Of a stretch of DNA of 52,758 nt, positions 2,216-41,609 are shown piece by piece. A program made the translations under genes and the position numbers. Origin of the DNA: a virus. The stretch spans positions 1 through 52,758 of IMG/VR virus record IMGVR_UViG_3300020394_000115. One strand, given 5' to 3'. Within the stretch, counting starts at the first letter, position 1. Every line of letters begins with the position of its first letter. A model generated the notes under the pieces. That model was not told where the DNA came from, searched no databases, and worked only from the letters and a program-made list of their open reading frames with translations.

Positions 2216-3245
2216 AATATTGTTTGCATTGATTTTAATGACATCTGTTGCAAAAGCAGATTATACATTAGTTGTACCGCAAAAACCCTCAGGTGGTACA
2301 TCTGTTTGGTCACAAATTGTTGTGGCAGAGTGGGAAAAACATTTAGGTGAGAAGATTATTCTTAAATACTTACCTGGCGCCAGAGATCAAATGGGCCCAA
2401 ATCAATTTCAAAATGAATTTAGATTTGACGATAAAACAATTCTAGTATCACATGGTGGTAACGGAATATCTTATCTGATTGAACCAGTTGAATATAATTA
2501 TTTTGATTGGGATTCTATTGGACACATGAATCTTAATATTATTGTTGGGGCAGATGATACCATTGCAAATGGTCATGTTAAATTTTCTGCCGGTTCAGGT
2601 ATGATACCTGAAATTATGGCAATCACTATGTTAATGGGTGGACCAGATATGGACCCCTATGAAGCTTTTAACAAATACATAACTTTTGTAAAAGGAATGA
2701 GTGGGTCAGAGAGAAGACTTGCATTTAGGCGTGGAGACTTAAACGCAACTAGAGAAAACCCAGCTGCATATAAAAAACACGTAATGCCTTTAATAGAAAA
2801 AGGAGTTGCAGAGACATGGTTTCATCATGGAATATTAGATGTAGAATCTGGTAAACATATTGATGACCCTAATTTTACAGAACCAACATTCGAAAAATTA
2901 TACACATATACATATGGAGTTGAACCAAGTGGTGATTTCTATGATGCATATAAACTTGTTAAGTCATGGAGAGACTCTTTACAAAAAGCGTTTTGGGTTA
3001 ATAAAAACAATCCTAACAAACAAAAGTTAATTGATGCATTAAATAAAATGATTGCAGACCCAGAATCTGTGGCTGCGATTGAAAAGAAAGTTGGAAAGTA
3101 TGAGTGGCGAGTAGGAGAAGATGGTAATGATACTGTTAAAATACTAAAGTCATTTATCACACCAGAAGCACTAAAAACATTAGTTGACTTTACTAATATT
3201 GAACTTGGATATAACACGGTGTACAAAGAAGACCTTACCAAGTAA
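2208..3245 (+). CDS. tctC: TctC-like periplasmic substrate-binding protein
   Basis: The 345-residue product starts with a clear signal peptide: a hydrophobic core, then AKA at residues 15-17 as the probable cleavage site. The mature start (YTLVVPQKPSGGTSVWSQIV) and a following LPGARDQMGP segment match the VP..aGG and N.PGA..G blocks of TctC-type binding proteins in the Bug family. The segment ILVSHGGNG matches the third conserved block. It should deliver an organic acid to the TctA-like permease, whose gene it overlaps. It is divergent and somewhat longer than typical TctC, so the ligand cannot be guessed. With no TctB seen, the pair may act with host TctB or alone. Confidence 0.75.
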   Translation: MLRILFALILMTSVAKADYTLVVPQKPSGGTSVWSQIVVAEWEKHLGEKIILKYLPGARDQMGPNQFQNEFRFDDKTILVSHGGNGISYLIEPVEYNYFDWDSIGHMNLNIIVGADDTIANGHVKFSAGSGMIPEIMAITMLMGGPDMDPYEAFNKYITFVKGMSGSERRLAFRRGDLNATRENPAAYKKHVMPLIEKGVAETWFHHGILDVESGKHIDDPNFTEPTFEKLYTYTYGVEPSGDFYDAYKLVKSWRDSLQKAFWVNKNNPNKQKLIDALNKMIADPESVAAIEKKVGKYEWRVGEDGNDTVKILKSFITPEALKTLVDFTNIELGYNTVYKEDLTK

Positions 3246-3817
3246 TGTCATATATTCTGTTTACAGGGGCACCCGGTTCTAAGTGGTCTGGTGTGGCCAG
3301 AGATATCTATAAATCAAAAGATATAGATCAATCTGACTACAAAAGAAATCGGGTGTACAAAAATAAAAAAGTAAAACATGTTGGTTCTTACTTTGACCCT
3401 GGTATGGAATTTGGACCTCAAAGAGAGGAGTGGGATAAACCTTTTTCTGGCAAAGGAAAAAGAATAATAAAATCCCACACCTTTTCTTATGATCTTGATA
3501 ATTTAAAAGAACATGGATATCCCATAGTATTTGTTCATAGACCAGATTATGAGTGTTATAAATGGTGGCAACAGGCAGGTGGATTTGATATAAAATACCC
3601 AAGTTATCAATGGTATGAAGATTTAGAAGGTATGTGGTGGCACATACAAGAACAAAATAGAGAAATTATGGATTTTATTAAAAACAATGAAAGGAATATA
3701 ACAACACTAGAGGATAATTTCGATTTATTAGAAATACTTAAAATATCAGAACCTGAAGATTTTTCATATAGACTATACAGTAATGAAGATATTAAAGTTT
3801 ATGTGTGGTTAAAGTAA
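3245..3817 (+). CDS. Sulfotransferase-like P-loop protein
   Basis: The 190-residue protein opens with a beta-strand and the glycine-rich loop FTGAPGSKWSG (residues 6-16). Mid-protein it has IVFVHRPDYECYKWWQQAGG, which resembles the second PAPS-binding block of sulfotransferases (R.P.....S/W). A histidine follows in IKSHTFSYD. This supports a P-loop sulfotransferase or kinase-like fold, not a specific reaction. The start codon overlaps the stop of the binding-protein gene (TAATG), so it belongs to the same transcript. Its last bases overlap the end of the convergent gene on the other strand. Confidence 0.45.
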   Translation: MSYILFTGAPGSKWSGVARDIYKSKDIDQSDYKRNRVYKNKKVKHVGSYFDPGMEFGPQREEWDKPFSGKGKRIIKSHTFSYDLDNLKEHGYPIVFVHRPDYECYKWWQQAGGFDIKYPSYQWYEDLEGMWWHIQEQNREIMDFIKNNERNITTLEDNFDLLEILKISEPEDFSYRLYSNEDIKVYVWLK

Positions 3818-14744: not shown

Positions 14745-15138
14745 AGATTTACCTGTTGATAAAGAACATTTAGATACAGAAAGTTTACGTAATCAAGACT
14801 TATATGCAAAGTATCTAGATTACAAAACTAACTTTGAATTTTTACTAGCAAAGGCAAAGGGCGAATATACAAAGTTATATCGAGACAAGTGGGAATACTA
14901 TGGTGGCAAGTCAGATGCTAAAATTTATGCTTCCAAACCATTTGACTTAAAAGTTTTAAAGAGTGATTTAAACATTTATATTGAATCAGACCAAGAGATT
15001 ATAGACGCAAAGAATAAAATAGTATATCTAGAAACAACAGTAAAATTTTTAGAGGGCGTTCAAAAGTCGATTCAATCTAGAGGGTGGGATATTAAAAATG
15101 CGATTGAATGGCGAAAATTCGAAGCTGGAATGGTTTAA
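14710..15138 (+). CDS. uvsY: Recombination mediator UvsY
   Basis: The 142-residue length matches T4 UvsY (137). The sequence opens with MTLDDLKKETYKDLPVDKEH, followed by a KYLDYKTNFEFLL helix and YRDKWEYYGGKSDAKIY, the conserved YY.GK block. UvsY loads the UvsX recombinase onto gp32-coated single-stranded DNA. It lies just before uvsW, as in T4. It overlaps the preceding gene by 35 bases and the next by 41. Confidence 0.85.
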   Translation: MTLDDLKKETYKDLPVDKEHLDTESLRNQDLYAKYLDYKTNFEFLLAKAKGEYTKLYRDKWEYYGGKSDAKIYASKPFDLKVLKSDLNIYIESDQEIIDAKNKIVYLETTVKFLEGVQKSIQSRGWDIKNAIEWRKFEAGMV

Positions 15139-15622
15139 ACCAATTCAACAAATGCGAGACGAGGAATATTCATTCCTTGATAATTTCATAAGAACAAGAA
15201 CCTATGGCAATATCTTAGAGATAGGTCAAGGTGGTTCTACTGTTATATTATTAGACGCTACAAAAGATACTGACAGAATGGTATACTCTATTGATATGAA
15301 ATTTAAATTAAAAGATGTCATGAAATATCTACCTAATGATTATATTGAAAGATTAAAATTTATTCAAGATAACTCGCAAAAAATTCATCTGAAAGAAAAA
15401 TTTGGTACTTTACTCATTGATGCAGACCATACCTTTACTGGTGTTAGAAAAGACACTATGAATTTTTGGGATAATTTAGATGATAATGGTTATGCAATTT
15501 TTCATGATTATGGAAATATGCCAGGGGTAACAGAATTTGTTGATGATTGGATTATGCTTTGGGAAAATGCTAAAACAACAATGGTATATGATAATCTTAT
15601 CGTAGTACAAAAACAATGTTGA
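15098..15622 (+). CDS. Class I SAM methyltransferase, Methyltransf_24-like
   Basis: The 174-residue protein has the motif I-like segment NILEIGQGGSTVILLDAT near residues 38-55, a second-strand acid in VYSIDMKFK, and TLLIDADHTFTGVRKD (DADH/D.H motif) typical of the Methyltransf_24 family. The end has YAIFHDYGNMPGV, another family block. The substrate is unknown. The ATG at 15098 lies inside uvsY; a later ATG at 15151 is possible, but the upstream residues look protein-like, so the longer form is given. Confidence 0.6.
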   Translation: MRLNGENSKLEWFKPIQQMRDEEYSFLDNFIRTRTYGNILEIGQGGSTVILLDATKDTDRMVYSIDMKFKLKDVMKYLPNDYIERLKFIQDNSQKIHLKEKFGTLLIDADHTFTGVRKDTMNFWDNLDDNGYAIFHDYGNMPGVTEFVDDWIMLWENAKTTMVYDNLIVVQKQC

Positions 15623-18696: not shown

Positions 18697-19757
18697 TGAA
18701 AGTAGCAATCATAACAGATACGCACTTTGGTGCTAGAAACGATAGTGACTTTTTTAATAATTACTTTTATGAATTTTATGAAGGCATATTTTTTCCATAT
18801 CTAGAACAGCATAATATAAAAACAGTTTTTCATCTAGGTGATATGATGGATAGACGTAAGTATGTCTCATATAAAACAGCAAAAGAATTTAGAGAAAGAT
18901 TTGTATTTCCTTTAAAACATTTAAAAGTTGACTTTCATTGTTTAGTAGGTAATCATGATATCTATTATAAAAATACAAATGATATAAACTCACTAAAAGA
19001 ATTAATTGGAAATAAAAGCGATAAGTTTCATTTATATGAGGATGCAACAGAGGTTAATGTTGGTGGATTAGATATACTGTTTATGCCATGGATTAATCCA
19101 CAAAATTATATTTACTCTATGGGTATGATTGATGAAACAAAAGCAGGTATATGTATGGGGCATTTAGAGATTAAAGGATTTCAAATGCACAAAGGACAAT
19201 TTAGTGAAACTGGTTATGACAAAGATACATTTAAAAAATTTCATACAGTATTCTCTGGCCACTTTCATCATAAATCAGATGATGGTCAAATATATTATCT
19301 AGGAACACCATACGAGATATATTGGAACGATCACAATGACCCAAAAGGTTTTCATATCTTTGACACAGAAACTTTAGAGTTAGAAAGAATTGTAAATCCT
19401 ATAAGGATGTTTGAAAAAATTTATTATGATGATACAGATAAAGATTATGCAAATGAGGATGTATCAAAGTATGAAAAGAAGTTTGTTAAATTAATTGTAG
19501 TTAATAAAAAAGATTTATATCAATATGATAGATTTGTTGATAGGTTAATGAAAGCAAACGCATACGAAGTTAAGATAGTAGAAGATTTTTCTGATATGCA
19601 AGCAGATAGTGTATCAGATGATATAGTGAAATATGCTGAAGATACCAATACTTTACTAAACAAATACATAGATGAATTAGAAATTGATTTAGATAAGGAT
19701 AGATTAAAAGGTATGATGCGAGGATTATATAATGAAGCTCAAGACTTGGAACTCTAA
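18696..19757 (+). CDS. gp47: Recombination nuclease subunit gp47 (SbcD/Mre11-like)
   Basis: A 353-residue calcineurin-type phosphoesterase (T4 gp47: 339). The metal-binding motifs are in order: DTHFG (Asp8, His10), HLGDMMDRR, LVGNHDIYYKN, MGHLEI and SGHFHHKS. With gp46 it processes DNA ends for recombination-dependent replication and helps degrade host DNA. It overlaps the deformylase stop by one base. The downstream gene starts 26 bases before its stop, so the insertion between gp47 and gp46 left translation coupled. Confidence 0.96.
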   Translation: MKVAIITDTHFGARNDSDFFNNYFYEFYEGIFFPYLEQHNIKTVFHLGDMMDRRKYVSYKTAKEFRERFVFPLKHLKVDFHCLVGNHDIYYKNTNDINSLKELIGNKSDKFHLYEDATEVNVGGLDILFMPWINPQNYIYSMGMIDETKAGICMGHLEIKGFQMHKGQFSETGYDKDTFKKFHTVFSGHFHHKSDDGQIYYLGTPYEIYWNDHNDPKGFHIFDTETLELERIVNPIRMFEKIYYDDTDKDYANEDVSKYEKKFVKLIVVNKKDLYQYDRFVDRLMKANAYEVKIVEDFSDMQADSVSDDIVKYAEDTNTLLNKYIDELEIDLDKDRLKGMMRGLYNEAQDLEL

Positions 19758-20271
19758 ATACAAGGTAATTTATGCAGACCCACCTTGGCACTTTAAATCA
19801 TACAGTTCAAAAGGTGATGGACGTAACGCTACACAGCATTATGATTGCATGTCTATTTCTGATATTTCTAATTTACGTGTTTCTGATTTGGCTTCAGATG
19901 ATTGTGTATTGCTCATGTGGGTGGTTGACCCAATGTTACCAGAAGCTTTGGAAGTTATTAAAGCGTGGGGTTTCAAATATAAAACAGTAGGTTTCACTTG
20001 GGCGAAACAAAATAAAAATGATTTAGGTATGTTTACAGGTTTAGGTTATTGGACTAGAGCAAACCCAGAGATGTGTTTACTTGCAACAAAAGGTAAACCA
20101 AAAAGAATATCAAAGTCAGTAAGACAACTAATCATAAGTCAACGACAAGAACATAGTAGAAAACCAGATGAGATATATGAAAGAATTGAACAATTATTAG
20201 ATGGTCCTTATGTAGAACTTTTTGCTCGTAGAGAAAGAAAAGGTTGGGATAGTTGGGGTAATGAATTGTGA
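19732..20271 (+). CDS. MT-A70 family adenine-N6 DNA methyltransferase
   Basis: The 179-residue protein has the catalytic DPPW motif at residues 16-19 within VIYADPPWHF, and a late TRANPEMCLLATKG block typical of MT-A70 enzymes, with the SAM-binding end (GPYVELFARRERKGW). It likely methylates adenines in phage DNA, giving protection or marking. It is inserted between the two nuclease subunits gp47 and gp46, overlapping gp47 by 26 bases and the next gene by four. Confidence 0.88.
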   Translation: MKLKTWNSKYKVIYADPPWHFKSYSSKGDGRNATQHYDCMSISDISNLRVSDLASDDCVLLMWVVDPMLPEALEVIKAWGFKYKTVGFTWAKQNKNDLGMFTGLGYWTRANPEMCLLATKGKPKRISKSVRQLIISQRQEHSRKPDEIYERIEQLLDGPYVELFARRERKGWDSWGNEL

Positions 20272-20975
20272 GAAAAAAAATGATTATAGTAGCAGGTGAT
20301 AGCAATCATGATTTAAAATTTCAAAAAAGAGCTGGGTTAGATTATAAATTAACTCTTTGGTTTGAACAACTAAACCTAGATGTAAAAAACTTATCTAAAT
20401 GTGCTGCTGGAAATGATATTATATGTAATTCTGTTCTTAAAGCAGTAAATGAAAATAGTAACGTAGATCATGTATATGTATTTTGGTCAGAGTGGTATAG
20501 AGTTTTAAAAAAACCTGTATTATCATATAATCAATTTGTTACAAAAAAATATTTTGATGACGGATTTCCAACTGAAAAAGGTAGTCAATATCAAAACTGG
20601 TTATATTCTATATCTTCTGGTGATCTTAAACAAGAGTTTATAGAAACAGTAAATGAAAATATGAATAGATTTTACTTACTACAATCAGCACTAAAAAAAA
20701 TGAATATTGATTACACTTTCTATCAAGACTTATGGCCATGGCCAAATATGAAATATGACAAAATGTTTACAGCTGCAAAATTAATAATAGAACACCCTTT
20801 ACATGATCTTATAGACGAAGACAGATTTTGGGGTTGGCCTATACACCCACACCTTGGTGGAAAATGTATTAGTAGTTTACAGATAGATCAAGTGTCAGAT
20901 ACAGATAATCACTATGGACAAAAAACACATGATTACCTTGCAAAAAATATTATTGAAAAAGGTATAAATTTATGA
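20268..20975 (+). CDS. SGNH-like protein, paralogue 1
   Basis: A 235-residue protein starting IIVAGDSNHD, a GDSL-type nucleophile block, with an AAGND block near residues 46-50 (the Gly/Asn oxyanion blocks) and a late DTDNHYG that may supply the Asp-His pair. It shares YVFWSEW and GWP....LGG with the two genes at 24408 and 25168. Such enzymes are esterases or acyl-group carriers; the substrate is unknown. GTG start in a GTGA overlap with the methylase stop; an ATG at 20280 is an alternative. Confidence 0.55.
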   Translation: MRKKMIIVAGDSNHDLKFQKRAGLDYKLTLWFEQLNLDVKNLSKCAAGNDIICNSVLKAVNENSNVDHVYVFWSEWYRVLKKPVLSYNQFVTKKYFDDGFPTEKGSQYQNWLYSISSGDLKQEFIETVNENMNRFYLLQSALKKMNIDYTFYQDLWPWPNMKYDKMFTAAKLIIEHPLHDLIDEDRFWGWPIHPHLGGKCISSLQIDQVSDTDNHYGQKTHDYLAKNIIEKGINL

Positions 20976-21217
20976 AAATTAGATACTATAATAAATTAGA
21001 TGCTGGACGTTGGTTAGGATTTATTATTGCAATGATAGGATGTTTTATTTTATCAAATGCAGATGTTGATACACAATGGTTAGGATGGGCAATAGCATGT
21101 ATATCTTGTAGTATGTGGATAAGATTTGCTATTAAGGATAAAGATATTCCTAGAGCTTTAATGGAAGGTATGTATTTACTATTATCTATCAGAGCAGTTT
21201 GGAATTGGTTAGTATGA
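20972..21217 (+). CDS. Small integral membrane protein
   Basis: An 81-residue protein with about three hydrophobic stretches (WLGFIIAMIGCFILSN, WLGWAIACISCSMWIRFAI and MYLLLSIRAVWNWLV), so mostly membrane-embedded. It is coupled on both sides by ATGA overlaps, to the SGNH-like gene before it and to gp46 after it. No family recognised. Confidence 0.6.
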   Translation: MKIRYYNKLDAGRWLGFIIAMIGCFILSNADVDTQWLGWAIACISCSMWIRFAIKDKDIPRALMEGMYLLLSIRAVWNWLV

Positions 21218-22923
21218 TACACTTTGAAAAGATACGTTGGAAAAACTTTTTATCTACTGGTAATAATTTTACAGAGATACATTTAGATAGGCAAAACACA
21301 ACACTAATAGTTGGTGAGAACGGTGCAGGTAAATCAACAATACTTGACGCATTGTGTTTTAGTTTATTTGGTAAACCTTTTAGAATAATTAGTAAATCTC
21401 AATTAGTTAATACTGTCAACGATAGAGAAGCAGTTGTTGAAGTAGAATTTAGAATTGGTACTAATCAATGGAAAGTTGTTAGAGGTATTAAACCTAGTAA
21501 GTTTGAAATATACCAAAATGGCGAAATGATTAATCAAGAAGCAAACTCTAGAGACTATCAAAAGTATTTAGAACAAAATGTATTAAGATTAAATTATAGA
21601 TCATTTACTCAGGTTGTAATATTAGGGTCATCAACTTTTGTACCTTTCATGCAATTAAAAGCAGTACATAGAAGAGAGGTAGTTGAAGAGATACTTGACA
21701 TTAAAATATTCTCTCTAATGAACATGATACTTAAAAATCAACTAAAAGATTTACAAGACGATATCAAAGATATGGATTATCAGTTTGAATTGGCAGTTGA
21801 AAAGATAGCCATGCAAACAAACTATATCGATGATATGAAAAAAAATAAGGATAAAATCATCAAAGAGAAACAAGATTTATTTGATTCTAATAAAACAATA
21901 CTAACAGACAGAGAGAAAGAAAAAGCCCTGCTAGAGACTGCTAGCGAGGATTTAGCGGGTGAAATCAATGATAAGACAGTAATAGAGGACAAATTAAGTA
22001 AACTTAATAATATACGTGCTACTTTGACTGAAAAACATAAACAATTAACAAAAGATATGGAGTTCTTTAAGAATAATGATTCGTGTCCAACCTGTGAACA
22101 AGATATACAACAATCTCATAAAGAAAAAATGGTTAACAAAAAAGAAATCAAAGTCAAAGAAATCGTTGAAGGTGCAACAAAACTTAAAGAAGAATTATTA
22201 GTTGTTAATAAACGTTTAGAAGAAATAACAGGTGTAACACAAAAGATAAGAGATAATGAAGTTAGACAGGCAGAGATACTTAGTTCTATATCAGAATTAA
22301 AAAAATATAATACAAAGTTAGAAGAAGATATATCAAACTTTGAAACTGGTAGTGTATCACAAAAAGATATAGACAAACTAGATCAGATGAAAAGTGATTG
22401 TAAAAAAATTGAACATCAAAGAAGTAAGTTAAAAGATGATAAAACTTACATCATGGCAGCTAGAGACATGTTAAACGATACAGGTATTAAAACTAAAATT
22501 ATTAAACAGTATCTACCTATTATGAATCAGTTAATTAACAAGTATCTCATGTCAATGGACTTTTACGTAAACTTTAATCTAGATGAAAACTTTAATGAAA
22601 CTATCAAGTCTAGATTTAGAGATACATTTAATTATGCTTCTTTTAGTGAAGGTGAAAAAATGCGAATTGATTTAGCATTGCTATTCACTTGGAGAGCAGT
22701 AGCAAAAATGAAAAACAGCACTAATACAAACTTACTAATACTAGATGAAATATTTGACAGTAGTTTAGATGGTCAAGGCACAGATGAGTTTTTAAGAATT
22801 TTAAATACTTTATCTGAGGAAAATACTTTTGTTATATCCCACAAAGGTGACCAACTAGCTGATAAATTTAGACATAGTATTAGATTTGAAAAAGTACAAA
22901 ACTTTTCTAGGATAGCAAAATGA
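21214..22923 (+). CDS. gp46: Recombination nuclease subunit gp46 (SbcC/Rad50-like)
   Basis: A 569-residue SMC-type ATPase (T4 gp46: 560). Walker A is GENGAGKST (34-42), a zinc hook SCPTCEQ sits midway between two coiled-coil arms, and the signature FSEGEKMRIDLALL is followed by Walker B LLILDEIFDSSLDG and a final FVISHKG. It is the partner of gp47. The ATG at 21214 is chosen because it overlaps the previous stop and begins at the family start MIHFEKIRWKNF; the upstream TTG is less likely. Confidence 0.97.
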   Translation: MIHFEKIRWKNFLSTGNNFTEIHLDRQNTTLIVGENGAGKSTILDALCFSLFGKPFRIISKSQLVNTVNDREAVVEVEFRIGTNQWKVVRGIKPSKFEIYQNGEMINQEANSRDYQKYLEQNVLRLNYRSFTQVVILGSSTFVPFMQLKAVHRREVVEEILDIKIFSLMNMILKNQLKDLQDDIKDMDYQFELAVEKIAMQTNYIDDMKKNKDKIIKEKQDLFDSNKTILTDREKEKALLETASEDLAGEINDKTVIEDKLSKLNNIRATLTEKHKQLTKDMEFFKNNDSCPTCEQDIQQSHKEKMVNKKEIKVKEIVEGATKLKEELLVVNKRLEEITGVTQKIRDNEVRQAEILSSISELKKYNTKLEEDISNFETGSVSQKDIDKLDQMKSDCKKIEHQRSKLKDDKTYIMAARDMLNDTGIKTKIIKQYLPIMNQLINKYLMSMDFYVNFNLDENFNETIKSRFRDTFNYASFSEGEKMRIDLALLFTWRAVAKMKNSTNTNLLILDEIFDSSLDGQGTDEFLRILNTLSEENTFVISHKGDQLADKFRHSIRFEKVQNFSRIAK

Positions 22924-23093
22924 CACTATACAAATTAAAACTTTATATAAAATTATACTGGTCAACATTTTTATCTTACTTTAAAAAGAAACCAAAAGAT
23001 AATGATGTTTACATTTACGAAAATGATATTGAAGAAGATGAATATCATCGTAAGTTAAGAGAAAACAAAATAGACATAAGTAAAGATGAATAA
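22920..23093 (+). CDS. Small acidic-tailed protein, 57 residues
   Basis: A short gene between gp46 and the carbamoyltransferase, coupled by ATGA at its start and TAATG at its end, which supports translation. The N-terminal 20 residues are hydrophobic and basic (a Leu/Tyr-rich possible amphipathic or membrane helix); the rest is charged and mainly acidic. No family recognised. Confidence 0.55.
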   Translation: MTLYKLKLYIKLYWSTFLSYFKKKPKDNDVYIYENDIEEDEYHRKLRENKIDISKDE

Positions 23094-24424
23094 TGATACA
23101 CGTAGGAATATCTGAAGGTTTTCATGATGCAGCTATAACTGTACTACATGGACAAGAAATAATATCAGCTAGACATAGTGAGAGATATACTAAAATTAAG
23201 AATGACCCAATTCTTGATTTAAATTTAATACCTGTTAAATATGACACATTAAATTTTTATGAAAAACCTTTCTTAAAAAATACTAGAAGATTATTTGCTG
23301 GTCAAAAATGGCAAAACCCTAGAAGAAAATATGACAATTATTTTGGTCATCATGAAACACATGCAGCTGCAGGTTATTACACTTCACCATTTAATGAATG
23401 TAACGTATTGGTTATAGATGCTATTGGTGAATGGAATACTGTATCCATATGGGAATGTAAAGATAATGAAATGAAAAAAATTAAGTCATGGAATTATCCT
23501 TATTCACTTGGTCTATTATATTCAGCAATCACTAAAAGATTAGGACTAAAACCAAATGAAGATGAATATATTACAATGGGTATGGCTGCGTTTGGAGAAC
23601 CTAGATATGATTTAGAATATTTACTAGAGGAAAACAATCACAAAGGTGTTGGTAGGATATTTCCACATGCACACCCACATGACTTAGCAGCTAGTGTACA
23701 AAATTTATATGAGACTAAGTTTTTGCAATTACTAAAATATTGTGAATATAGTAATCTAGTATTAGCTGGTGGTTGTGCTTTAAATTGTGTTGCTAACAGT
23801 AAGATACCAGACAGATTTAATGTTTGGATTTTACCAGCGCCAGGAGATGCAGGTTCATCTTTGGGTGCAGCTGCATTAGTTGAAAAGAAAAAATTAAAAT
23901 GGAAACATCCTTATCTTGGCTTAGCTGCAGGGCATGGTCAAAGTCATGTAAAGGAGATTGTAGATCATTTACTTAAACATGGAGTATGTGGAATAGTAAA
24001 TGGTAAAGAAGAGTTTGGGCCAAGAGCATTAGGAAATAGAAGTTTACTTGCAGACCCTAGATTAAATATTAAAGATACAGTAAATGAAATAAAACAAAGA
24101 CAAAAATTTAGACCGTTTGCACCAGCAATACTAGAAGAATATTTTGATAAGTATTTTGATGGTCGTAAAAATAGATATATGCAATTTGTATCTAAAGCAA
24201 AACATGATTTAAAATCAGTTACACATGTTGATGGTACTGCTAGAGTTCAATGTGTAGAGGAAGATAATATCAGTATATTAAGACCAATACTAGAAGAGTT
24301 TTATGATAGAACAGGTTGTCCTATGTTACTAAATACAAGTTTGAATATAAAAGGAAGACCTATGTGTAGCACTTGGGCAGATGCCCAAAGATTTGAGAAA
24401 AAATATAATGTCAAAGTATTCTAA
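23093..24424 (+). CDS. NodU/TobZ-type carbamoyltransferase
   Basis: The 443-residue protein begins HVGISEGFHDAAITVLHG, then has the HHETHAAAGYY block (His86, His87, His90) of the Kae1-like domain, LVIDAIGEW, VLAGGCALNCVAN and the C-terminal signature EFGPRALGNRSLLADPR followed by KFRPFAPAIL. These enzymes transfer carbamoyl groups from carbamoyl phosphate via an adenylate intermediate to sugars or other small molecules. It is shorter than typical NodU/TobZ (about 550-600). It is flanked by SGNH-like genes, which suggests a joint tailoring pathway. Confidence 0.9.
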   Translation: MIHVGISEGFHDAAITVLHGQEIISARHSERYTKIKNDPILDLNLIPVKYDTLNFYEKPFLKNTRRLFAGQKWQNPRRKYDNYFGHHETHAAAGYYTSPFNECNVLVIDAIGEWNTVSIWECKDNEMKKIKSWNYPYSLGLLYSAITKRLGLKPNEDEYITMGMAAFGEPRYDLEYLLEENNHKGVGRIFPHAHPHDLAASVQNLYETKFLQLLKYCEYSNLVLAGGCALNCVANSKIPDRFNVWILPAPGDAGSSLGAAALVEKKKLKWKHPYLGLAAGHGQSHVKEIVDHLLKHGVCGIVNGKEEFGPRALGNRSLLADPRLNIKDTVNEIKQRQKFRPFAPAILEEYFDKYFDGRKNRYMQFVSKAKHDLKSVTHVDGTARVQCVEEDNISILRPILEEFYDRTGCPMLLNTSLNIKGRPMCSTWADAQRFEKKYNVKVF

Positions 24425-25175
24425 AATAATTGCTGGTGGATGTTCTTTTACAGATAAGGATTTTCCTAAATTTGCCTCACCCAATCCATTAGATTATAAG
24501 ATGTGGCCAGAAGTCATAGGTGAAAAACTTGATTGTGAAGTTATTAATACTGGTAGATGTGGATTTGGTAATTATGCGATATATCACACTACTCTAAATG
24601 CAATAATGAAACATAAAGTAGACCATGTATTTGTTATGTGGTCAGATTGGACAAGGCAAGATTTTTTAATTGATAGTTTTGCAAGTTCAACAAGAATGGG
24701 TGGTAAAGCTGGTGGAGATTATGTATCACTACACCCATTTTATTGGGGAATAAAAGAAAGTGATGTCATAAAATGGTATAATGAATCTTTTACTAAAAAC
24801 TTCCCTCATAAACATATACATGGTAAAGAATTTACAGCATCGATGCCTAATATACAACAACTCATAGATACAAATATAAATTATATATTTTCAATGCAAG
24901 CAATATGTGAAAAATTAAATATTAAATATACTGCTTGTCAAGCAATGGAGAATGATAGATTTTTACCAAGTATTTTAATAAAACATCCATACTTAGAACA
25001 TATAAAAAATTTTTATGGATGGCCAATGGATAAAAAGCTAGGTGGATTTACCATGGTAGATTTACTTAAAAAAGAATACAAAAATGCTTATAAAGTTAGT
25101 GAAGAGGATGCTCATCCAAATGAAATAGGTCACAAATTTATAGGAAATAAAATAATGGAGTACATAAATGTCTAA
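24408..25175 (+). CDS. SGNH-like protein, paralogue 2
   Basis: The product has about 255 residues. The N-terminus IIAGGCSFTDKDFPKFASP has GCSF in place of the classical GDSF nucleophile motif. INTGRCGFGNYAIYH provides Gly and Asn blocks, and the end has SEEDAHPNEIGHKF with the Asp..His pair (DAHPN). The VMWSDWTRQDFL and GWPMDKKLGG blocks are shared with the neighbouring paralogue. Start chosen at the ATG at 24408, which aligns with the start of paralogue 3; an upstream ATG at 24381 lies in the previous gene. Likely an esterase or acyltransferase-like enzyme. Confidence 0.6.
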   Translation: MSKYSKIIAGGCSFTDKDFPKFASPNPLDYKMWPEVIGEKLDCEVINTGRCGFGNYAIYHTTLNAIMKHKVDHVFVMWSDWTRQDFLIDSFASSTRMGGKAGGDYVSLHPFYWGIKESDVIKWYNESFTKNFPHKHIHGKEFTASMPNIQQLIDTNINYIFSMQAICEKLNIKYTACQAMENDRFLPSILIKHPYLEHIKNFYGWPMDKKLGGFTMVDLLKKEYKNAYKVSEEDAHPNEIGHKFIGNKIMEYINV

Positions 25176-25887
25176 AATTATTATTACAGGTGGATGTTCT
25201 TTTGCAGATAAATTTATGCCCAAGAACGCAAAACCTAAACCACTTGATTATAAGATGTGGCCAGAAATCATTGGCGAGTTAAGTAAATGTGAAGTGATTA
25301 ACACAGGACACTCAGGTTTTGGTAATCATGCGATATATCACTCAGTACTCAACGAAATATGGAATAATATTGATGATGTACAACATGTTTATGTTATGTG
25401 GTCAGAATGGGCAAGACAAGACTTTTTAACAAAAAGTGGTTATAAATCAGTTGTTCCTAGATTAGAATTTGATGAATATAATAAAACACAAGCATTTTAT
25501 CAAAGAACATGGAGTCGTCCATTTCCTAGTATGCAACAACTTATAGACACAAATATGAATTACGTATATTCAATGCAAAGTATTTGTAAAAATTTAGGGA
25601 TTAAATATACTGCCGTTCAAGCAATGAAACCAATCCCTCAGCTTGTTGAGGGTGAAACCTTAGATACACCTTTTGCATACAATATAATAAAACATCCTCT
25701 AGTAGAAAGTATTGAAAATTTTATGGGGTGGCCAATGTTAGATCATCTGGGTGGATATAATATTGTAGATTTATTAAATTTATCTATGGGTTCTAGTTGG
25801 CGAATCAGTATAGAAGATGCACATCCAAATGAGAAAGCACAAAAGTTCATAGCATCCAAAATATACGAATATTCAGACAAATCCTAG
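25168..25887 (+). CDS. SGNH-like protein, paralogue 3
   Basis: The 239-residue protein is a close relative of the preceding one: IIITGGCSFADKFMP, then a LDYKMWPEIIGEL segment, INTGHSGFGNHAIYH, YVMWSEWARQDFL, a FMGWPMLDHLGGYNIVDLL segment and IEDAHPNEKAQKFI. The GCSF/GN/DAHPN arrangement fits an SGNH hydrolase with a Ser nucleophile and an Asp-His pair. The tandem arrangement, with an 8-base overlap, points to a local duplication. It ends the operon before the GC-rich gap. Confidence 0.6.
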   Translation: MSKIIITGGCSFADKFMPKNAKPKPLDYKMWPEIIGELSKCEVINTGHSGFGNHAIYHSVLNEIWNNIDDVQHVYVMWSEWARQDFLTKSGYKSVVPRLEFDEYNKTQAFYQRTWSRPFPSMQQLIDTNMNYVYSMQSICKNLGIKYTAVQAMKPIPQLVEGETLDTPFAYNIIKHPLVESIENFMGWPMLDHLGGYNIVDLLNLSMGSSWRISIEDAHPNEKAQKFIASKIYEYSDKS

Positions 25888-32819: not shown

Positions 32820-33527
32820 ATGTATGAGAATAAAGTCGACTCCGACACAAGCGAATTCTTACAGACAGGTCTAGGAATGAAAAACGAATGGCATGTTGTA
32901 ACAGAATTTGAAAACAAGATAGCAGAATTCTTTGGTGCTCCATATGCGGTCGCCACAGATTGTTGTACAAATGCCCTTGAACTTAGCATAAGATTAGAAA
33001 AAATGAAAAAAGGTAGAGAGGTTAGACCAATAACTGTACCTTTCCACACTTATGTTTCAGTACCAAACATGTTAATTAAAAATAATTGGACATTCAATTG
33101 GGGTGATGTTCGTTGGCATGGATATCATTATTTAACAAAAGAAACAATTGATGCAGCTGTATATTGGAAAAGAAATGGTTATGAACCAGGTACAAAAATG
33201 TGTTTAAGTTTTTTTTATAGAAAACATTTAAGTACAGATAGAGGTGGAATGATACTTCTAGATAATAAAGAAGATGCTGATTTATTAAGGATAATGTGTT
33301 ATGATGGTAGGCAAAGATCAAACGTGCCATGGAATAAACAATACATAGATTTATTTGGTTATCATTATTATATGACACCACATAAAGCAAAAATAGGATT
33401 AAAAAATTTTGAAAAGGTGAAAGACAAAAAGCCAATAAGAAAAGATTGGGATTGGTACCCAGACATTCATAATTGGCCTGTCTATAAAAAATTTGGTGAT
33501 GAAACATTTAGTATTAGTACAAAGTAA
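32820..33527 (+). CDS. DegT/DnrJ/EryC1-like protein lacking the PLP core segment
   Basis: A 235-residue relative of sugar aminotransferases (usually about 370). It keeps the N-terminal GLGMKNEWHVVTEFENKIAE block, a CTNALELSIRL block in place of SGT.AL.L.L, the VPFHTYVSVPNMLI strand and the SFFYRKHLSTDRGGMIL segment that contains the Schiff-base Lys. The roughly 50-60 residues that normally carry the PLP-ring Asp (EDAAQ region) are missing and the C-terminal domain is cut short, so activity is doubtful. A weak late-like GATAAATA lies nine bases upstream. It starts an inserted cassette. Confidence 0.65.
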   Translation: MYENKVDSDTSEFLQTGLGMKNEWHVVTEFENKIAEFFGAPYAVATDCCTNALELSIRLEKMKKGREVRPITVPFHTYVSVPNMLIKNNWTFNWGDVRWHGYHYLTKETIDAAVYWKRNGYEPGTKMCLSFFYRKHLSTDRGGMILLDNKEDADLLRIMCYDGRQRSNVPWNKQYIDLFGYHYYMTPHKAKIGLKNFEKVKDKKPIRKDWDWYPDIHNWPVYKKFGDETFSISTK

Positions 33528-34593
33528 TCAAGGCGTAGGTCACGCAAATAGAGCAAAGGCTTTAGGTGAGTATCTAACAACCAGACTTATTATAACTAGA
33601 CCTTTTACAGGTAAATCAACCGATACTGAATTTTTTGGACACGATAAAGTCTATAACGATTTATATCAAGATTATAGAGAGTATGACCCAGATGTAATTA
33701 TTACAGAGGGATATCCTTTTGGTCGATATGGTTGGGACCCATTTTGGGCTGAACAATGGGGTCATAAATGGGAACATGGTGGCGTTTTAGATATATTAGA
33801 ACATGCAAAAGAAAATAAGAAAAAAATTTATTCATTAGATAGAGATATACCTTGGATTCAACCAAAGGAAATGTATTTCTATATTGATAGATTAAATGAA
33901 TATTATGATGGTGTGTTTTTTGCTGGCGACTATAATTTTTTAGACGCAACTGAGCAACTATATGAAACCCCCATGATAGATTGTGAAGTTTATAATACTG
34001 GTTATATTACATATCCTTATACCAAACCAAGTGTTGATAAAAGAGATGGTATATTAGTATCTGGTGGTGATTGGTATAAACTAACTCATAAGTATCAAAG
34101 ATTATTTCTTGAAGTAAAAGAAGCAATTCCTAGTTTAAAAATATCTTTTATTATTGGTGATAAAACACCAAAAGATATTTTAAAAATGGCAGAGAATAGA
34201 GATATTAATTTAATTAAAAGACCAAGTGTAAATGAATTTAGAGATTATTTGTCTGTACATAAAATGGCATTTACATCTTTAGGTTATATGACTTTTACTG
34301 ATTTAAATATTACAAAAACACCAGCGTTAGTTGTTCCAAATGAATATTCATCATCTGAATTATATGATGTAAATAATAATGTTATAGGAAACGAAGAAAC
34401 TTATAGAACATCTAGATATTCAGACGAAGGTGGTTGCCATTGGATACCACAAAAAGATTTAGATATAGATTTAATATTAGGAGGTATTGAAGAGACAATG
34501 AAAATTAAACAAGAGGATATACCAGATATCGATTTAGATGGTGGAGAATATATTAAACAATGTTTGATAGAGAAGAAAATAAAATATATTTAA
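33499..34593 (+). CDS. GT-B fold glycosyltransferase (MurG-like)
   Basis: The 364-residue protein has the N-terminal motif QGVGHANRAKALGEYL (residues 11-26), as in GT-B enzymes of the MurG/GT28 type (G.GH..R..AL). The middle has ILVSGGDWYKLTHKYQRLF, the start of the second Rossmann domain, and the C-terminal half has FTSLGYMTFTDLNITKTPAL, similar to the donor-binding loop. It should transfer a sugar from a nucleotide donor. Start ATG 33499 preferred; TTG and GTG codons precede it in frame. It overlaps the DegT-like gene by 29 bases. Confidence 0.7.
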   Translation: MKHLVLVQSNQGVGHANRAKALGEYLTTRLIITRPFTGKSTDTEFFGHDKVYNDLYQDYREYDPDVIITEGYPFGRYGWDPFWAEQWGHKWEHGGVLDILEHAKENKKKIYSLDRDIPWIQPKEMYFYIDRLNEYYDGVFFAGDYNFLDATEQLYETPMIDCEVYNTGYITYPYTKPSVDKRDGILVSGGDWYKLTHKYQRLFLEVKEAIPSLKISFIIGDKTPKDILKMAENRDINLIKRPSVNEFRDYLSVHKMAFTSLGYMTFTDLNITKTPALVVPNEYSSSELYDVNNNVIGNEETYRTSRYSDEGGCHWIPQKDLDIDLILGGIEETMKIKQEDIPDIDLDGGEYIKQCLIEKKIKYI

Positions 34594-35627
34594 AAAGTAT
34601 TCAAGGTGCGATAGATGGTGGACATATGCAAGCCTCGATAGATAACAAGTACATGTACCCTTGGCGTATAAACATATTTCCTGGTACGAGTTGTATGTTT
34701 TTTTGTTCTTTCTGTGGTAGAAATCATGGTTCTGTTGTTGATGATGCATATGAATCATATCTTTACTTTAAACAAGTAATAGAACAAGATAGTGGTAAAG
34801 ACCCTAAAGTTTTTGGTATAGGTGGTGGACTAGAACCACTGACAACACCTTACATAGGTGAAATATTTAAAAACTTACATGATGGTGGGTATAAATGTAG
34901 AATGTTAACAAATGCTTTTTTACTTAATAACAAGTATATTAAAAAACATGAATATATTAATTCGTTAGATCATATTAGAGTATCTTTGTATGGTATAGAT
35001 GAAGAAGAATATAAAAGTACAACAAAACATAATAAGGGTTGGCATGTTGTAAAAGAAAATTTAAAAAATTATAACAAGATTGAAAATAGAACTAAGTTAT
35101 ATTTAAATTATATACTATTACCAAGTAACTATAAAAACATATTAAAAGTAATTGATTATATTGATTACATAGGTGGATGTGATAATTTATCTTTACGTGA
35201 AGACTTTGCTTTTCATTATGAGATTGAAGAGAGAAAAACTTTGGCAGAGTATCTTTTAAAATTTGATACTGAAATAAAAAAGAGAGGTATAAGAGTTGAC
35301 TATGGTTATTCTTTATCTCAATTACTAAAAGGTTTGGAAACAAAACTATTAAGAGTAACTTCGGTAGATCAATTAACCAGAAGACAATCGCCACAAGTAA
35401 AGATTGCCCTTGACCCGAGAGGCGATATATATTATTATCAAGAAGCAGGTTTCATAGATAGACCTGGTTCAGATAGACATATTTTGGGTAATATAAAAAA
35501 TTCTTCTATTGAAGAAGAGCTAAAAAAAGAAGTTGAAATAGAACCTGATATAAATGATGTAAAATATATGGACGCATTTAATCAGACTGTTGAATTATAT
35601 AAATGGAGTAAGCGATGTATGAATTAA
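34560..35627 (+). CDS. Radical SAM enzyme
   Basis: The 355-residue protein has the [4Fe-4S] ligand motif CMFFCSFC (Cys45, Cys49, Cys52), followed by the GIGGGLEPLTTP block (SAM-binding GGE-like) and MLTNAFLL, LDHIRVSLYG and LYLNYILLPSN strands of the TIM barrel. No C-terminal auxiliary-cluster cysteines are evident. The substrate is unknown. Adjacent aminotransferase-like and glycosyltransferase genes suggest a deoxy- or amino-sugar reaction. It overlaps the upstream gene by 34 bases and gp62 by 13. Confidence 0.8.
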   Translation: MFDREENKIYLKSIQGAIDGGHMQASIDNKYMYPWRINIFPGTSCMFFCSFCGRNHGSVVDDAYESYLYFKQVIEQDSGKDPKVFGIGGGLEPLTTPYIGEIFKNLHDGGYKCRMLTNAFLLNNKYIKKHEYINSLDHIRVSLYGIDEEEYKSTTKHNKGWHVVKENLKNYNKIENRTKLYLNYILLPSNYKNILKVIDYIDYIGGCDNLSLREDFAFHYEIEERKTLAEYLLKFDTEIKKRGIRVDYGYSLSQLLKGLETKLLRVTSVDQLTRRQSPQVKIALDPRGDIYYYQEAGFIDRPGSDRHILGNIKNSSIEEELKKEVEIEPDINDVKYMDAFNQTVELYKWSKRCMN

Positions 35628-37192: not shown

Positions 37193-39670
37193 ATGAGTAA
37201 GTTTTACACAAATGTTATACAATGGGGAAACAATCTTTTACTAAGAGAGATTGTCAATGGTGAACGTATTAATCGTAGGATTAAATATTCGCCTACTATG
37301 TTTTGCCCTGTCATGAGAGAAACAAAATACAAAACTCTTCAAGGCAAATATGTGATGCCTGTTAAACATGAGACTATCAAAGAAGCCAAGAATTGGATTC
37401 AACAATACGAAGATCAGCCTCACTTGGTATATGGTAATACCAACTTTCAATTTAATTATCTGTATGAACAATATCCTAACCTTGAGTGGAATATGGATGA
37501 AGTATTAATTATTACAATTGATATTGAGGTTGCTTGTGAGAATGGTTTTCCAAATGTAAAAGATGCAGCTGAGGAAATGTTATCTATCACAATTAAGAAC
37601 CAGCAGAATAAACAAATATTTGTTTGGGGTGTAGGTAAGTATCAAACAAGTAGAAAAGATGTTGTGTATATTGAATGTGATAATGAATATGAATTACTTA
37701 CAGAGTTTCTAAAGTTTTGGAAAGTAAATCAACCAGATGTTATTACTGGTTGGAATACAGAATTTTTTGATATACCTTATTTGTGTAATCGTATTAAAAG
37801 AATAATGGGTGAGGATACTTTAAAAGATTTATCACCATGGAGATCAGTATTATCTAAAACAATATATCAAATGGGAAGACAACATCAAATATACGAAATA
37901 CAAGGTGTTGCAGCTCTTGACTACTATGATCTATATAGAAAATTTACATACACCAATCAAGAGAGTTACAAACTAGATCATATTGCTAGTGTAGAACTTG
38001 GTATTAAGAAAGATGAAAATCCACATGATACGTTTAGAGATTGGTATACAAATGACTTTCAATCTTTTATAGATTACAATATCAAAGACGTTGAGATAGT
38101 TGACCAACTAGAAGACAAGATGAAACTAATTGAACTATGTTTAACAATGGCATATGAGGCAAAAGTAAATTATGTTGATGTTCTCGGTACAGTTCGTTAT
38201 TGGGATATGTTAATACACAACTACTTAATGGATAAAAAAATTGTTATACCACAAAAAACTGATAAAGAAAAATCTGACAAGTATGAAGGTGCATATGTTA
38301 AAGACCCACAGGTTGGCGAACACAAATGGGTTGTGTCTTTTGACTTGAATAGTTTGTATCCACATCTAATTATGCAATATAATATTTCACCAGAAACATT
38401 GAAGAGTGAAAGAACTGTACCTAATATGAATGTGGATAAGATGTTAAGTAAATCAGTTGATACATCTATATTAGAAAATACTACCATGACACCAAATGGT
38501 GCTTTGTTTAGAACTGATAAAAAAGGTTTTTTACCTGAGATGATGCAAACAATGTATGATGATAGAGTTAAGTATAAACGAGCAATGTTAGATGCTAAAC
38601 AAGAATATGAAAAAACTAAAAATGCAAAATTATTAAAAATGATATCTAAGTTCGATAATATTCAAATGGCAAGAAAGATTTCACTTAACTCAGCTTATGG
38701 TGCGATTGGTAACAAATGGTTTAGATATTACAATTTACCTATGGCAGAAGCAATAACCACTTCTGGTCAACTATCTATTCGTTGGATTGAACATAAGATA
38801 AATGAATACATGAATAATATAAATCAAACAAAAGATGTTGATTATGTTATTGCGTCTGATACAGACTCAGTTTATATTCGATTTGATGAACTAATAGAAA
38901 AATTTAATCCAAAAAACCCAGTTGACTTTCTTGATAAAATAGCTAAAGATAAAGTAGAACCATTTATTAATCAAGCGTATCAAGAACTTGCTGATTACAC
39001 ACACGCATACGATCAGAAAATGCAAATGAAACGTGAAGTGATTGCAGACAAAGGTATATGGACAGCAAAGAAAAGATATATTTTAAATGCACATGACGTT
39101 GAAGGTGTTCGTTATCAAGAACCTAAATTAAAAATTATGGGAATAGAAGCAGTTAAGTCTTCAACACCAGCACCTTGTCGTGAAAAAATTAAACAAGCAT
39201 TACGTATTATTATGGATGGTAACGAAAAAGAATTAAATATATTTATTCAAAATTTTAGAACTGAGTTTCTAACATTACCACCAGAGGATGTGGCATATCC
39301 TAGAAGTGTGAATGGTCTAGATAAGTGGACTGAATCACACAATCTATTTAAAAAGGGAGCACCAATACATGTCAAAGGTGCTATATTATATAATTATCTA
39401 GTTAAGAAAAATAAACTATCTCACAAATACCCATTTATACAAGAGGGTGATAAGATTAAATTTTTACATATGCAATTACCAAACATATATCAATCTTCTA
39501 GTATTTCATTTATTACTTCATTACCAAAAGAAATAAAGTTTGCTGTTGATTATGAAACACAATTTGAAAAGTCTTTTATTGAACCTCTACATTATATTAC
39601 TGAAAAAATTAAATGGAATGTAGATAGAACTTATGGTACTCAAGGTACTCTAGATGAATTTTTTGTATGA
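37193..39670 (+). CDS. gp43: Family B DNA polymerase gp43
   Basis: An 825-residue replicative polymerase (T4: 898). Exonuclease motifs are IDIE (Asp110, Glu112), TGWNTEFFDIPYL and YNIKDVEIVDQLED. Polymerase motifs are FDLNSLYPHLIMQYN, KISLNSAYGAIGN and ASDTDSVYI. It ends GTLDEFF, a clamp-binding type tail that matches T4 polymerase. It has its own TTGACA promoter and overlaps the next gene by ATGA. Confidence 0.98.
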   Translation: MSKFYTNVIQWGNNLLLREIVNGERINRRIKYSPTMFCPVMRETKYKTLQGKYVMPVKHETIKEAKNWIQQYEDQPHLVYGNTNFQFNYLYEQYPNLEWNMDEVLIITIDIEVACENGFPNVKDAAEEMLSITIKNQQNKQIFVWGVGKYQTSRKDVVYIECDNEYELLTEFLKFWKVNQPDVITGWNTEFFDIPYLCNRIKRIMGEDTLKDLSPWRSVLSKTIYQMGRQHQIYEIQGVAALDYYDLYRKFTYTNQESYKLDHIASVELGIKKDENPHDTFRDWYTNDFQSFIDYNIKDVEIVDQLEDKMKLIELCLTMAYEAKVNYVDVLGTVRYWDMLIHNYLMDKKIVIPQKTDKEKSDKYEGAYVKDPQVGEHKWVVSFDLNSLYPHLIMQYNISPETLKSERTVPNMNVDKMLSKSVDTSILENTTMTPNGALFRTDKKGFLPEMMQTMYDDRVKYKRAMLDAKQEYEKTKNAKLLKMISKFDNIQMARKISLNSAYGAIGNKWFRYYNLPMAEAITTSGQLSIRWIEHKINEYMNNINQTKDVDYVIASDTDSVYIRFDELIEKFNPKNPVDFLDKIAKDKVEPFINQAYQELADYTHAYDQKMQMKREVIADKGIWTAKKRYILNAHDVEGVRYQEPKLKIMGIEAVKSSTPAPCREKIKQALRIIMDGNEKELNIFIQNFRTEFLTLPPEDVAYPRSVNGLDKWTESHNLFKKGAPIHVKGAILYNYLVKKNKLSHKYPFIQEGDKIKFLHMQLPNIYQSSSISFITSLPKEIKFAVDYETQFEKSFIEPLHYITEKIKWNVDRTYGTQGTLDEFFV

Positions 39671-40473
39671 TAGATAAACTATTAGTTGAAAATATAGAAC
39701 AAACAACACCAGATCAAAACGTGGCAGTATTATTGTCTGGTGGGGTTGATAGTATATCAGTTGCATTGGCAGCTCATAGACTAGGAAAAACTATAACAGC
39801 ATATTCTTTTTGCCTTGACAACGAGCCCTCTTATGATTATAATAAGGCTAAAGAGATTGCAAAGAATCACAATTGGGCATTTGTAGGAACTGTAATAGAC
39901 ACTACAAAACTTGAACAAGACTTTTACAAGTTGGTAAGTTTAGGATGCAAAAAGAAAACTCATTATGAATGTGTGTATCCTTTTTTACATGTGTACCCAA
40001 AGATTGCAGAGACTTATGTACTCTCTGGTTGGGCAGCAGATGGTTATTATGGAGTAAGTAAAAAAGCAAACATCCATTATAAACATACTAAAGAAAAGTT
40101 TGATGAGTTTAGAGATCAATACTTTTTACCAGAAAATGCAGCTGGATATAAAATGCATAAAAAAGTTTCGGATATGTATAATAAAAAATTTATTACACCA
40201 TATCTAAGAATGAATGTGAAAGATTATTTTTATAGTATGGATTGGTATCAATTAAATCAACCTTATCAAAAACATCACGTAAGAACTGCTTTTAATCTTG
40301 ACAAAGACGTTAAGAAACATTTAAACTTACAATTAGATTCAAAAATAAATGTATTGTTTGAAAGACTGCTAAATAATAAAAAGATAAACTATAAAGGAAG
40401 ATCAAGAGTGATGGACATGGTTAGAGATTGGCCTAAACCTGAAGGTGCAACACTAAATCAATTTATGATATGA
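39667..40473 (+). CDS. PP-loop ATPase, asparagine synthetase-like
   Basis: The 268-residue protein has the PP-loop SGGVDS (24-29) in VAVLLSGGVDSISVAL and a later YVLSGWAADGYYG that resembles the S.GGDE.F.G block of the asparagine synthetase synthase domain. The glutaminase domain is absent, so it would need free ammonia or a different nucleophile. It may adenylate and amidate a small molecule or modify a base. Coupled to gp43 and to the C5 methylase by ATGA overlaps. Confidence 0.7.
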   Translation: MIDKLLVENIEQTTPDQNVAVLLSGGVDSISVALAAHRLGKTITAYSFCLDNEPSYDYNKAKEIAKNHNWAFVGTVIDTTKLEQDFYKLVSLGCKKKTHYECVYPFLHVYPKIAETYVLSGWAADGYYGVSKKANIHYKHTKEKFDEFRDQYFLPENAAGYKMHKKVSDMYNKKFITPYLRMNVKDYFYSMDWYQLNQPYQKHHVRTAFNLDKDVKKHLNLQLDSKINVLFERLLNNKKINYKGRSRVMDMVRDWPKPEGATLNQFMI

Positions 40474-41609
40474 AATACAAACCTTATTTAATGAAAGATG
40501 TACATGCTGGAGAAGCTCTGAATAAGTTTAGAGTTATATCTACTTTCGCTGGTGGTGGAGGTTCATCTACAGGTTACAGACTTGCTGGTGGTAAGATACT
40601 TGCAATTAATGAGTTTGTTGAAGAGGCAAGAAATACTTACAGAGACAATTATCCTAACACACCAATTCTTGATGGTGATATAAAAGAACTTACAGGTAAA
40701 GAATTTTTAGAAGTAACAAAATTAAAAGAAGGTGAACTAGAATTATTAGATGGCAGTCCACCTTGTTCAGCATTTAGTATGTGTGGTACTCTTGCAAGAG
40801 AGGGAACTGTACATAGTGATGGGTTTGGTAAAACTAAATCTTATTCAGATGGTAAGATAGTTACAAACATCGAAGACTTATTTTTTGAGTTTCTAAGAGT
40901 TGCTGAAGTTATTAGACCAAAAACTATTATTGCAGAAAATGTTGAGGGTCTAACAGTTGGAGAAGCAAAACAATATTTTAATAAAATTCAAAATACATTT
41001 GAAGACATTGGATATCAAGTAGTTGCAAAAGTACACGATTGTTCTCAGTTTGGTGTTCCACAAAGAAGACGAAGAGTTTTCTTCATGGCAGTACGTGATG
41101 ATATCATGGATGAAGTTGGTTTAAACTTTATGACATTATCATCTTTATTTCCTGAGCCAAATAAAACAATTACTACTTTACAAGGTGCCTTTGATGGTTT
41201 AGAGTATGATAAAGATGAAGTTGATATGTTAACTACAAAATGGAAAGAGACAGCATACTATAAACAAACATGTGTTTTGATGCCAAGAAACCCAGATAAA
41301 GTTATTACTGGTACAGACTATCATCCTAAAGGATGGCACTTTAATTTAAAGATTGCTTCAGAGTTTCACCCTAGTCCTACTATTACAGCGATGGGTGCAA
41401 CAGAAAAAACTGCTGGAGTTTGTCATTGGAATGATGATAGAAAATTTACACTTGGCGAATTAAAAAGAGTTACTTCATTACCAGATGATTTTGTACTTAC
41501 AGGTAAGTGGGCACAAAAAAGTGAAAGATGTGGTCGTATGGTACCTAGTCTTATGATGAAAGCTCTTGCTGAATCAATGTATAACAAGGTGATAAAAAAT
41601 GCCAGATAA
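40470..41609 (+). CDS. DNA cytosine-C5 methyltransferase
   Basis: A 379-residue enzyme with the C5-methylase motifs in order: FAGGGGSSTG (27-36, SAM), GSPPCSAFS (95-103, catalytic Cys99), IIAENVEGL (ENV 156-158), QRRRRVFFMA (motif VIII) and a C-terminal block with RVTSLPDDFVLTG. The target recognition region is short. It would put m5C into phage DNA, complementing the MT-A70 adenine methylase at 19732. Confidence 0.93.
   Translation: MKYKPYLMKDVHAGEALNKFRVISTFAGGGGSSTGYRLAGGKILAINEFVEEARNTYRDNYPNTPILDGDIKELTGKEFLEVTKLKEGELELLDGSPPCSAFSMCGTLAREGTVHSDGFGKTKSYSDGKIVTNIEDLFFEFLRVAEVIRPKTIIAENVEGLTVGEAKQYFNKIQNTFEDIGYQVVAKVHDCSQFGVPQRRRRVFFMAVRDDIMDEVGLNFMTLSSLFPEPNKTITTLQGAFDGLEYDKDEVDMLTTKWKETAYYKQTCVLMPRNPDKVITGTDYHPKGWHFNLKIASEFHPSPTITAMGATEKTAGVCHWNDDRKFTLGELKRVTSLPDDFVLTGKWAQKSERCGRMVPSLMMKALAESMYNKVIKNAR

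Follow-up and report, generated by a model that had tools for sequence, protein, structure and literature searches.

The stretch analysed as a whole (the window) is a 52,758-base piece of a T4-like marine phage record, IMG/VR virus record IMGVR_UViG_3300020394_000115, which carries a cassette of three SGNH-like paralogues and a NodU/TobZ/CmcH-type O-carbamoyltransferase (CT), as listed in Table 1. It has portal, head, sheath, gp46/47-type, clamp, UvsX-like and CobS/CobT-like genes, and its nearest relatives, in cultured Pelagibacter (SAR11) phages and many IMG/VR contigs, suggest a large ocean virus of the pelagimyophage type. The paralogues are found where a preliminary description of this DNA had placed them, although its statement that they surround the CT is loose: paralogues 2 and 3 do follow the CT gene directly, but paralogue 1 is split off from it by a small membrane-protein open reading frame and a T4-type gp46. 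The end of the CT gene and the beginning of paralogue 2 have 17 bases in common (24408-24424), and paralogues 2 and 3 share 8 bases, which suggests that these three genes form one translationally coupled unit. As for paralogue 1, its nearest relatives with a known context (L016:5191-5844 and its copies) are located directly downstream of a CT gene, which makes it a probable member of this set in spite of the intervening gp46.

Table 1. Position and main traits of the cassette genes and of two further genes of the window
Feature	Position	Strand	Length (residues)	Traits
SGNH-like paralogue 1	20268..20975	+	235	GTG start; GDSN / WSEW / GWP-LGG / DNH
NodU/TobZ/CmcH-type O-carbamoyltransferase (CT)	23093..24424	+	443	Motifs and Pfam/PHROG matches
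SGNH-like paralogue 2	24408..25175	+	255	GGCSF / WSDW / GWP-LGG / DAHPN
SGNH-like paralogue 3	25168..25887	+	239	GGCSF / WSEW / GWP-LGG / DAHPN; AlphaFold SGNH fold
Short DegT/DnrJ/EryC1-type sugar aminotransferase	32820..33527	+	235	Family shared with the DegT of Mosig-type clusters
Radical SAM enzyme	34560..35627	+	355	

Concerning the three SGNH-like proteins of the window (labelled P0001, P0003 and P0004), their mutual homology in BLASTP is far above chance (E = 4e-18 for P0001 vs. P0003; E = 3e-36 and 1e-21 for the other two window paralogues retrieved with P0004), with 32-54% identity among them, which bears out their description as paralogues. When the three were compared alone with Pfam and PHROGs, no family of their own was found, and P0003 gave a weak match to the tail fibre family phrog_5240 (E = 0.007). 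Weak matches to Pfam Lipase_GDSL_2 and to DUF6071 were obtained for 16 and 15 of 62 family members, respectively, and a literature search on DUF6071 returned nothing relevant. The top PDB sequence match of the family profile, the designed protein 8g8i, consists of short helical repeats and was dismissed as due to chance.

Motifs were counted on a family alignment of 105 rows. The blocks WS[ED]W (as WSEW, WSDW and WSEW) and GWP....LGG are indeed present in all three window proteins and, as had been supposed, neither is a general SGNH feature: the first is a substitute for block III, whereas the second is a motif specific to the family. The canonical GxND with its oxyanion Asn occurs in none of the 105 rows, its place being taken by W[ST]xxxR, of which the Arg is invariant (105/105). 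In block I, the nucleophile Ser (GxS) is kept in 101 of the 102 rows with a letter there, and the D of GDS is replaced by C in 73 of these 102. GCS is thus the norm of the family and not an oddity of two genes; GCSF was correctly read in paralogues 2 and 3, but paralogue 1 has GDSN instead of GDSF. Block II, with its G.GN motif, is well preserved (N45 in 97%, G50 in 92% and G52 in 84% of the rows), and the last block, DxHPN, has its His in 98 of 99 rows, with the Asp at H-2 in 85 of 98 rows and not at H-3, as in the DxxH spacing of block V. Ser and His are both retained in 94 of the 105 rows. An Asn or Gln occupies the position of Asn53 in 104 rows out of 105, and this residue or Arg83 may complete the oxyanion hole. 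The proteins consist of a single domain and begin 2-3 residues ahead of the first strand; therefore, they have no signal peptide and are probably cytoplasmic.

An AlphaFold model of paralogue 3, built with an alignment of 62 relatives, has a predicted local distance difference test score (pLDDT) of 92.4 and a predicted template modelling score (pTM) of 0.91, and displays an alpha/beta/alpha SGNH (flavodoxin-like) fold, so that the SGNH-like nature proposed for these proteins holds at the level of the predicted structure. In Foldseek, the model matches TesA best (E = 4e-6; Z = 14.2 over 170 residues); next come further GDSL esterases, carbohydrate esterases, CgnD (Z = 12.0, 192 residues) and PatB. 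The family is thus a divergent, SGNH-like one. With the SGNH/GDSL superfamily (E. coli TesA, carbohydrate esterases, the O-acetyltransferase PatB), it shares the fold, the G-x-S Ser, the N..G..G of block II and the His of the last block, whereas it departs from two textbook blocks (W[ST]xxxR for GxND, DxH for DxxH), usually has GCS and possesses the extra GWP....LGG. Among BFVD entries, the model matched A0A6J5LTW5, a 602-residue phage protein annotated as radical S-adenosylmethionine (SAM), which also contains an SGNH-like stretch and is perhaps another radical SAM fusion.

The enzyme of the NodU/TobZ type announced in the preliminary description is a complete CT. It matches both Pfam domains, Carbam_trans_N (E = 7e-38; 131 bits for a curated cut-off of 24) and Carbam_trans_C (E = 3e-47; 161 bits for a cut-off of 27), as well as phrog_1601 (E = 4e-83), and its PDB relatives are NovN, GdmN and TobZ. 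The motifs HDAA, HxxxH and Asp, the latter two providing the metal ligands as in TobZ, and those of the YrdC-like half (EFGPRALGNRS, FRPFAPAIL, HVDGTARVQ and LLNTSLN) are present, and the metal-site and carbamoyl-phosphate motifs are intact in an alignment with NovN, GdmN and 7xb6. Because both domains and the active-site motifs align with NovN, GdmN and their relatives, the CT very likely O-carbamoylates a hydroxyl. While it resembles the NodU/TobZ/CmcH O-carbamoyltransferases (TobZ, NovN, GdmN) in these respects, it is shorter than the solved enzymes, which have 576-702 residues. CTs are annotated in many cyanophages, and with most CTs of marine phages the window CT shares about 24-34% identity. 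That of Marine virus AG-345-D19 (L010:5871-7208) reaches about 51% identity; in this frame it has no N-terminal HDA motif at its start and would be a truncated, frameshifted or mis-started copy.

The association between both kinds of genes was then quantified with a viral scan using the SGNH profile alone, which provided 80 loci. A CT was called by a hidden Markov model at a cut of 70 bits within the fetched flanks (8 kb). As a whole, 52 of the 80 SGNH-seeded loci have a CT, with 53 CT genes on the same strand as the SGNH-like gene and none on the opposite one. A count of 59 of 80 given by a laxer CT profile was discarded, its matches of 24-50 bits having proved to be radical SAM proteins, pulled in by fusions between radical SAM and CT domains. 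The proportion is 24 of 29 for the loci having more than 4.5 kb on each flank and 33 of 50 after dereplication at 85%. As controls, 160 loci of related phages were taken from two scans seeded with the gp46 and portal genes of the window: a CT occurs in two of them and an SGNH-like gene in two, both kinds being present together in one locus (Fisher's test, 1.6e-29; 1.4e-23 for the dereplicated set). Even though the control contigs are shorter on average, the density per base, calculated over 958 kb of SGNH-seeded and 1,423 kb of control sequence, is still about 54 vs. 1.4 CT loci per megabase. The link between SGNH-like and CT genes is thus real and recurs across dozens of marine phages, in agreement with the expectation that the paralogues would mostly be found with a CT. 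It is, however, one-sided: an SGNH-like gene is in reach in only 12 of 78 further loci obtained with the CT profile (L090-L167), many phage CTs having no SGNH partner. Twenty contigs whose locus had no CT were searched whole, and a CT was found elsewhere in one.

Two arrangements can be distinguished. In type A, that of the window, the CT gene is directly followed by one to four SGNH-like genes; about 12 such cassettes lie, like that of the window, between gp46 and CobT/CobS-like genes, and others (L018, L035, L039 and L051) have neighbours of gene families 37 and 60 in common with the island of phage Mosig. In type B, or Mosig type, a glycosyltransferase-like gene whose product has a GT-B fold comes first, followed by radical SAM, SPASM-like, one to three SGNH-like and DegT aminotransferase genes, and then by radical SAM, CT, nitroreductase-like, methyltransferase-like, GT8-like and further glycosyltransferase genes. 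Mosig EXVC030M, a pelagimyophage and thus of the same phage group, has SGNH-like, DegT, radical SAM and CT genes in one run. The SGNH tree follows the locus type closely (two label changes, for a mean of 36 after shuffling), and gene overlaps link SGNH-like genes to CT or DegT genes. Near the SGNH/CT genes, glycosyltransferases of three kinds (including GT8-like and phrog_1962) and a split radical SAM/SPASM pair recur, often beside tail-fibre genes. The DegT of the clusters is closest to scyllo-inositol transaminase, QdtB, WbpE and perosamine synthase. In three loci, radical SAM and CT are fused (L050:11658-14558, L056:11671-14547 and L076:4459-7404) in frames of 959-982 residues, with a radical SAM part of about 460, so that both functions are tied together in one protein.

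Several variants were observed among these clusters. Four tandem SGNH-like paralogues stand behind the CT in L039:7054-10587 and L051:3279-6322, the CT of L051 being split into two overlapping frames (1993-2877 and 2873-3349), possibly by a frameshift. Amidinotransferase-like genes are present in or beside the cassette at L016:5805-7115, L012:10125-11369 and L010:2585-3904; for that of L010, the PDB matches are arginine:glycine amidinotransferase (4e-9), SxtG (4.5e-7) and inosamine-phosphate amidinotransferase (2e-4), while the match of that of L016 is weak. A bacterial origin was considered but gained no cellular context: one genome scan gave three contigs of metagenome-assembled genomes, of which at least two, by their tail-type genes, resemble phage sequences. 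These two, L168 and L169, were binned into Rhodobiaceae and Gammaproteobacteria genomes; they carry a type B and a type A cluster, respectively, next to tail-type genes of phages, and are thus probably phage contigs.

On balance, we lean towards the cassette being part of a phage-borne pathway by which, during infection, a glycan or amino-sugar compound is made or tailored. The CT would move a carbamoyl group from carbamoyl phosphate, via carbamoyl adenylate (carbamoyl-AMP), to a hydroxyl, and one to four cytoplasmic SGNH-like serine enzymes, most likely O-acyl esterases or O-acyltransferases, would take as targets the hydroxyl or acyl groups of that compound, each paralogue possibly serving a different position. 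The remainder of the pathway would be provided, in the relatives, by the sugar aminotransferase, the GT-B- and GT8-like glycosyltransferases and the split radical SAM/SPASM, nitroreductase-like and methyltransferase-like enzymes. The simplest assumption is that the product is based on a sugar, since the DegT resembles sugar/cyclitol aminotransferases, three kinds of glycosyltransferases recur and radical SAM-CT fusions exist. The dedicated tailoring pathway of the preliminary description finds support in the same recurrent enzymes. Most likely, the pathway would serve to change a glycan on the surface of either the host (superinfection exclusion) or the virion; a small molecule is an alternative target. 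A bolder version, regarded as rather doubtful, is that marine T4-like phages, SAR11 phages included, share a modular natural-product-like pathway leading to a carbamoylated, acyl-tailored aminosugar, with sugar aminotransferase, radical SAM/SPASM, CT, SGNH-like, glycosyltransferase and, in some members, amidinotransferase modules; the W[ST]xxxR SGNH-like enzymes might then have a new oxyanion-hole chemistry and possibly transfer acyl or carbamoyl groups instead of hydrolysing esters.

Several points weigh against the glycan pathway. The radical SAM/SPASM and Asp/Arg-hydroxylase neighbours fit a peptide product as well. Catalysis by the SGNH-like proteins is not assured, because the GxND Asn and the usual DxxH spacing are missing. 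SGNH loci without a CT exist (L015, L045, L063 and L068), most contigs lacking one being fragments. In the window, the CT cassette lies among replication genes (gp47, gp46 and CobT/CobS-like), and the sugar-type genes are 7-10 kb away.

DNA looks the least likely target of the product. It is quite improbable that the CT carbamoylates 5-hydroxymethylcytosine to guard the phage DNA, with the SGNH-like proteins as auxiliaries, even though precisely this activity has been demonstrated for one NodU-type CT of viral origin, its defining partner being a deoxycytidine monophosphate (dCMP) hydroxymethylase of the thymidylate synthase family (Yang et al. 2021, PMC8670742), and the window cassette lies amid DNA replication and recombination genes, near an MT-A70 methylase. 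No such partner (PF00303) was found in 17 records, namely the window and 16 with SGNH-like and/or CT genes, among them Mosig (a genome reported as 76% complete), HTVC008M, C48C1 and a contig of 165 kb; most of these records are fragments, although some genomes are near-complete, and control genomes were positive. A hydroxylation route other than dCMP hydroxymethylase is possible, but the SGNH-linked clusters hold a sugar aminotransferase and glycosyltransferases and, in this, resemble the unmodified contigs of that metavirome study, where CTs stand beside glycosyltransferases (PMC8670742). Maturation of a peptide of the RiPP (ribosomally synthesised and post-translationally modified peptide) kind seems unlikely as well. 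Radical SAM/SPASM enzymes would modify a small peptide, which would also be cut or esterified by the SGNH-like protein and carbamoylated by the CT, as in crocagin biosynthesis, where the SGNH-fold hydrolase CgnD and the carbamoyltransferase CgnI act in one cluster (PMC10070186). The neighbouring genes often encode SPASM domains, split radical SAM pairs and Asp/Arg hydroxylases, and CgnD is among the structural matches of paralogue 3, although just one of many with an SGNH fold. The crocagin pathway differs, however, by its peptide product and by having neither a sugar aminotransferase nor a glycosyltransferase in its own cluster, whereas DegT and several glycosyltransferases recur here. No precursor peptide was seen, though no systematic search of small open reading frames was made.

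SGNH domains are present in many tail proteins of phages, and the SGNH-like proteins could instead be virion-associated esterases (tail-fibre deacetylases) acting on the host surface and unrelated to the CT. Several clusters adjoin tail-fibre genes and P0003 has the weak tail fibre match given above, yet this alternative has little probability for proteins made of one domain, devoid of fibre or attachment regions, whose genes overlap those of CT or DegT and are strongly linked to CT. Mere co-residence, with no shared substrate, of two gene types common in the hypervariable cassettes of marine T4-like phages is judged just as improbable. Both are accessory genes, and CTs without an SGNH partner are common (most of L096-L167); against this stand the same orientation in all loci, the overlapping genes, a linkage that recurs at two distinct genome positions with different gene contexts, and the 158 control loci out of 160 without a CT.

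Part of this picture was already known. The hypervariable regions of pelagimyophages hold GT8 glycosyltransferases, radical SAM cassettes and deoxysugar genes, the host surface being the suggested target of the glycosyltransferases (Zaragoza-Solas et al. 2020, PMC7029224); carbamoyltransferase is not mentioned there. In the literature searched, which covered few subscription papers, neither the SGNH-like family and its altered blocks nor a link between SGNH and carbamoyltransferase genes in phages was found described. A family with an altered catalytic block, unnamed in the libraries searched, is thereby defined, and vague labels (phage 'carbamoyltransferase', unnamed hypothetical proteins) give way to a testable pathway recurrent in marine phages, including cultured SAR11 phages. 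Infection by such viruses probably involves the making or decorating of an unusual sugar, and Mosig, with its cultured host, offers a genetic handle on what phages carbamoylate.

Elsewhere in the window, the DegT gene, 7 kb from the cassette, and the radical SAM gene (Table 1) are possible partners of the pathway. Two methyltransferase genes were seen near the cassette, one of the Methyltransf_24 type (15098-15622) and the MT-A70 adenine methylase (19732-20271). Finally, an asparagine-synthase-like gene (39667-40473; PF00733, 1.8e-12) with a weak QueC-like match adjoins a DNA methyltransferase gene (40470-41609).

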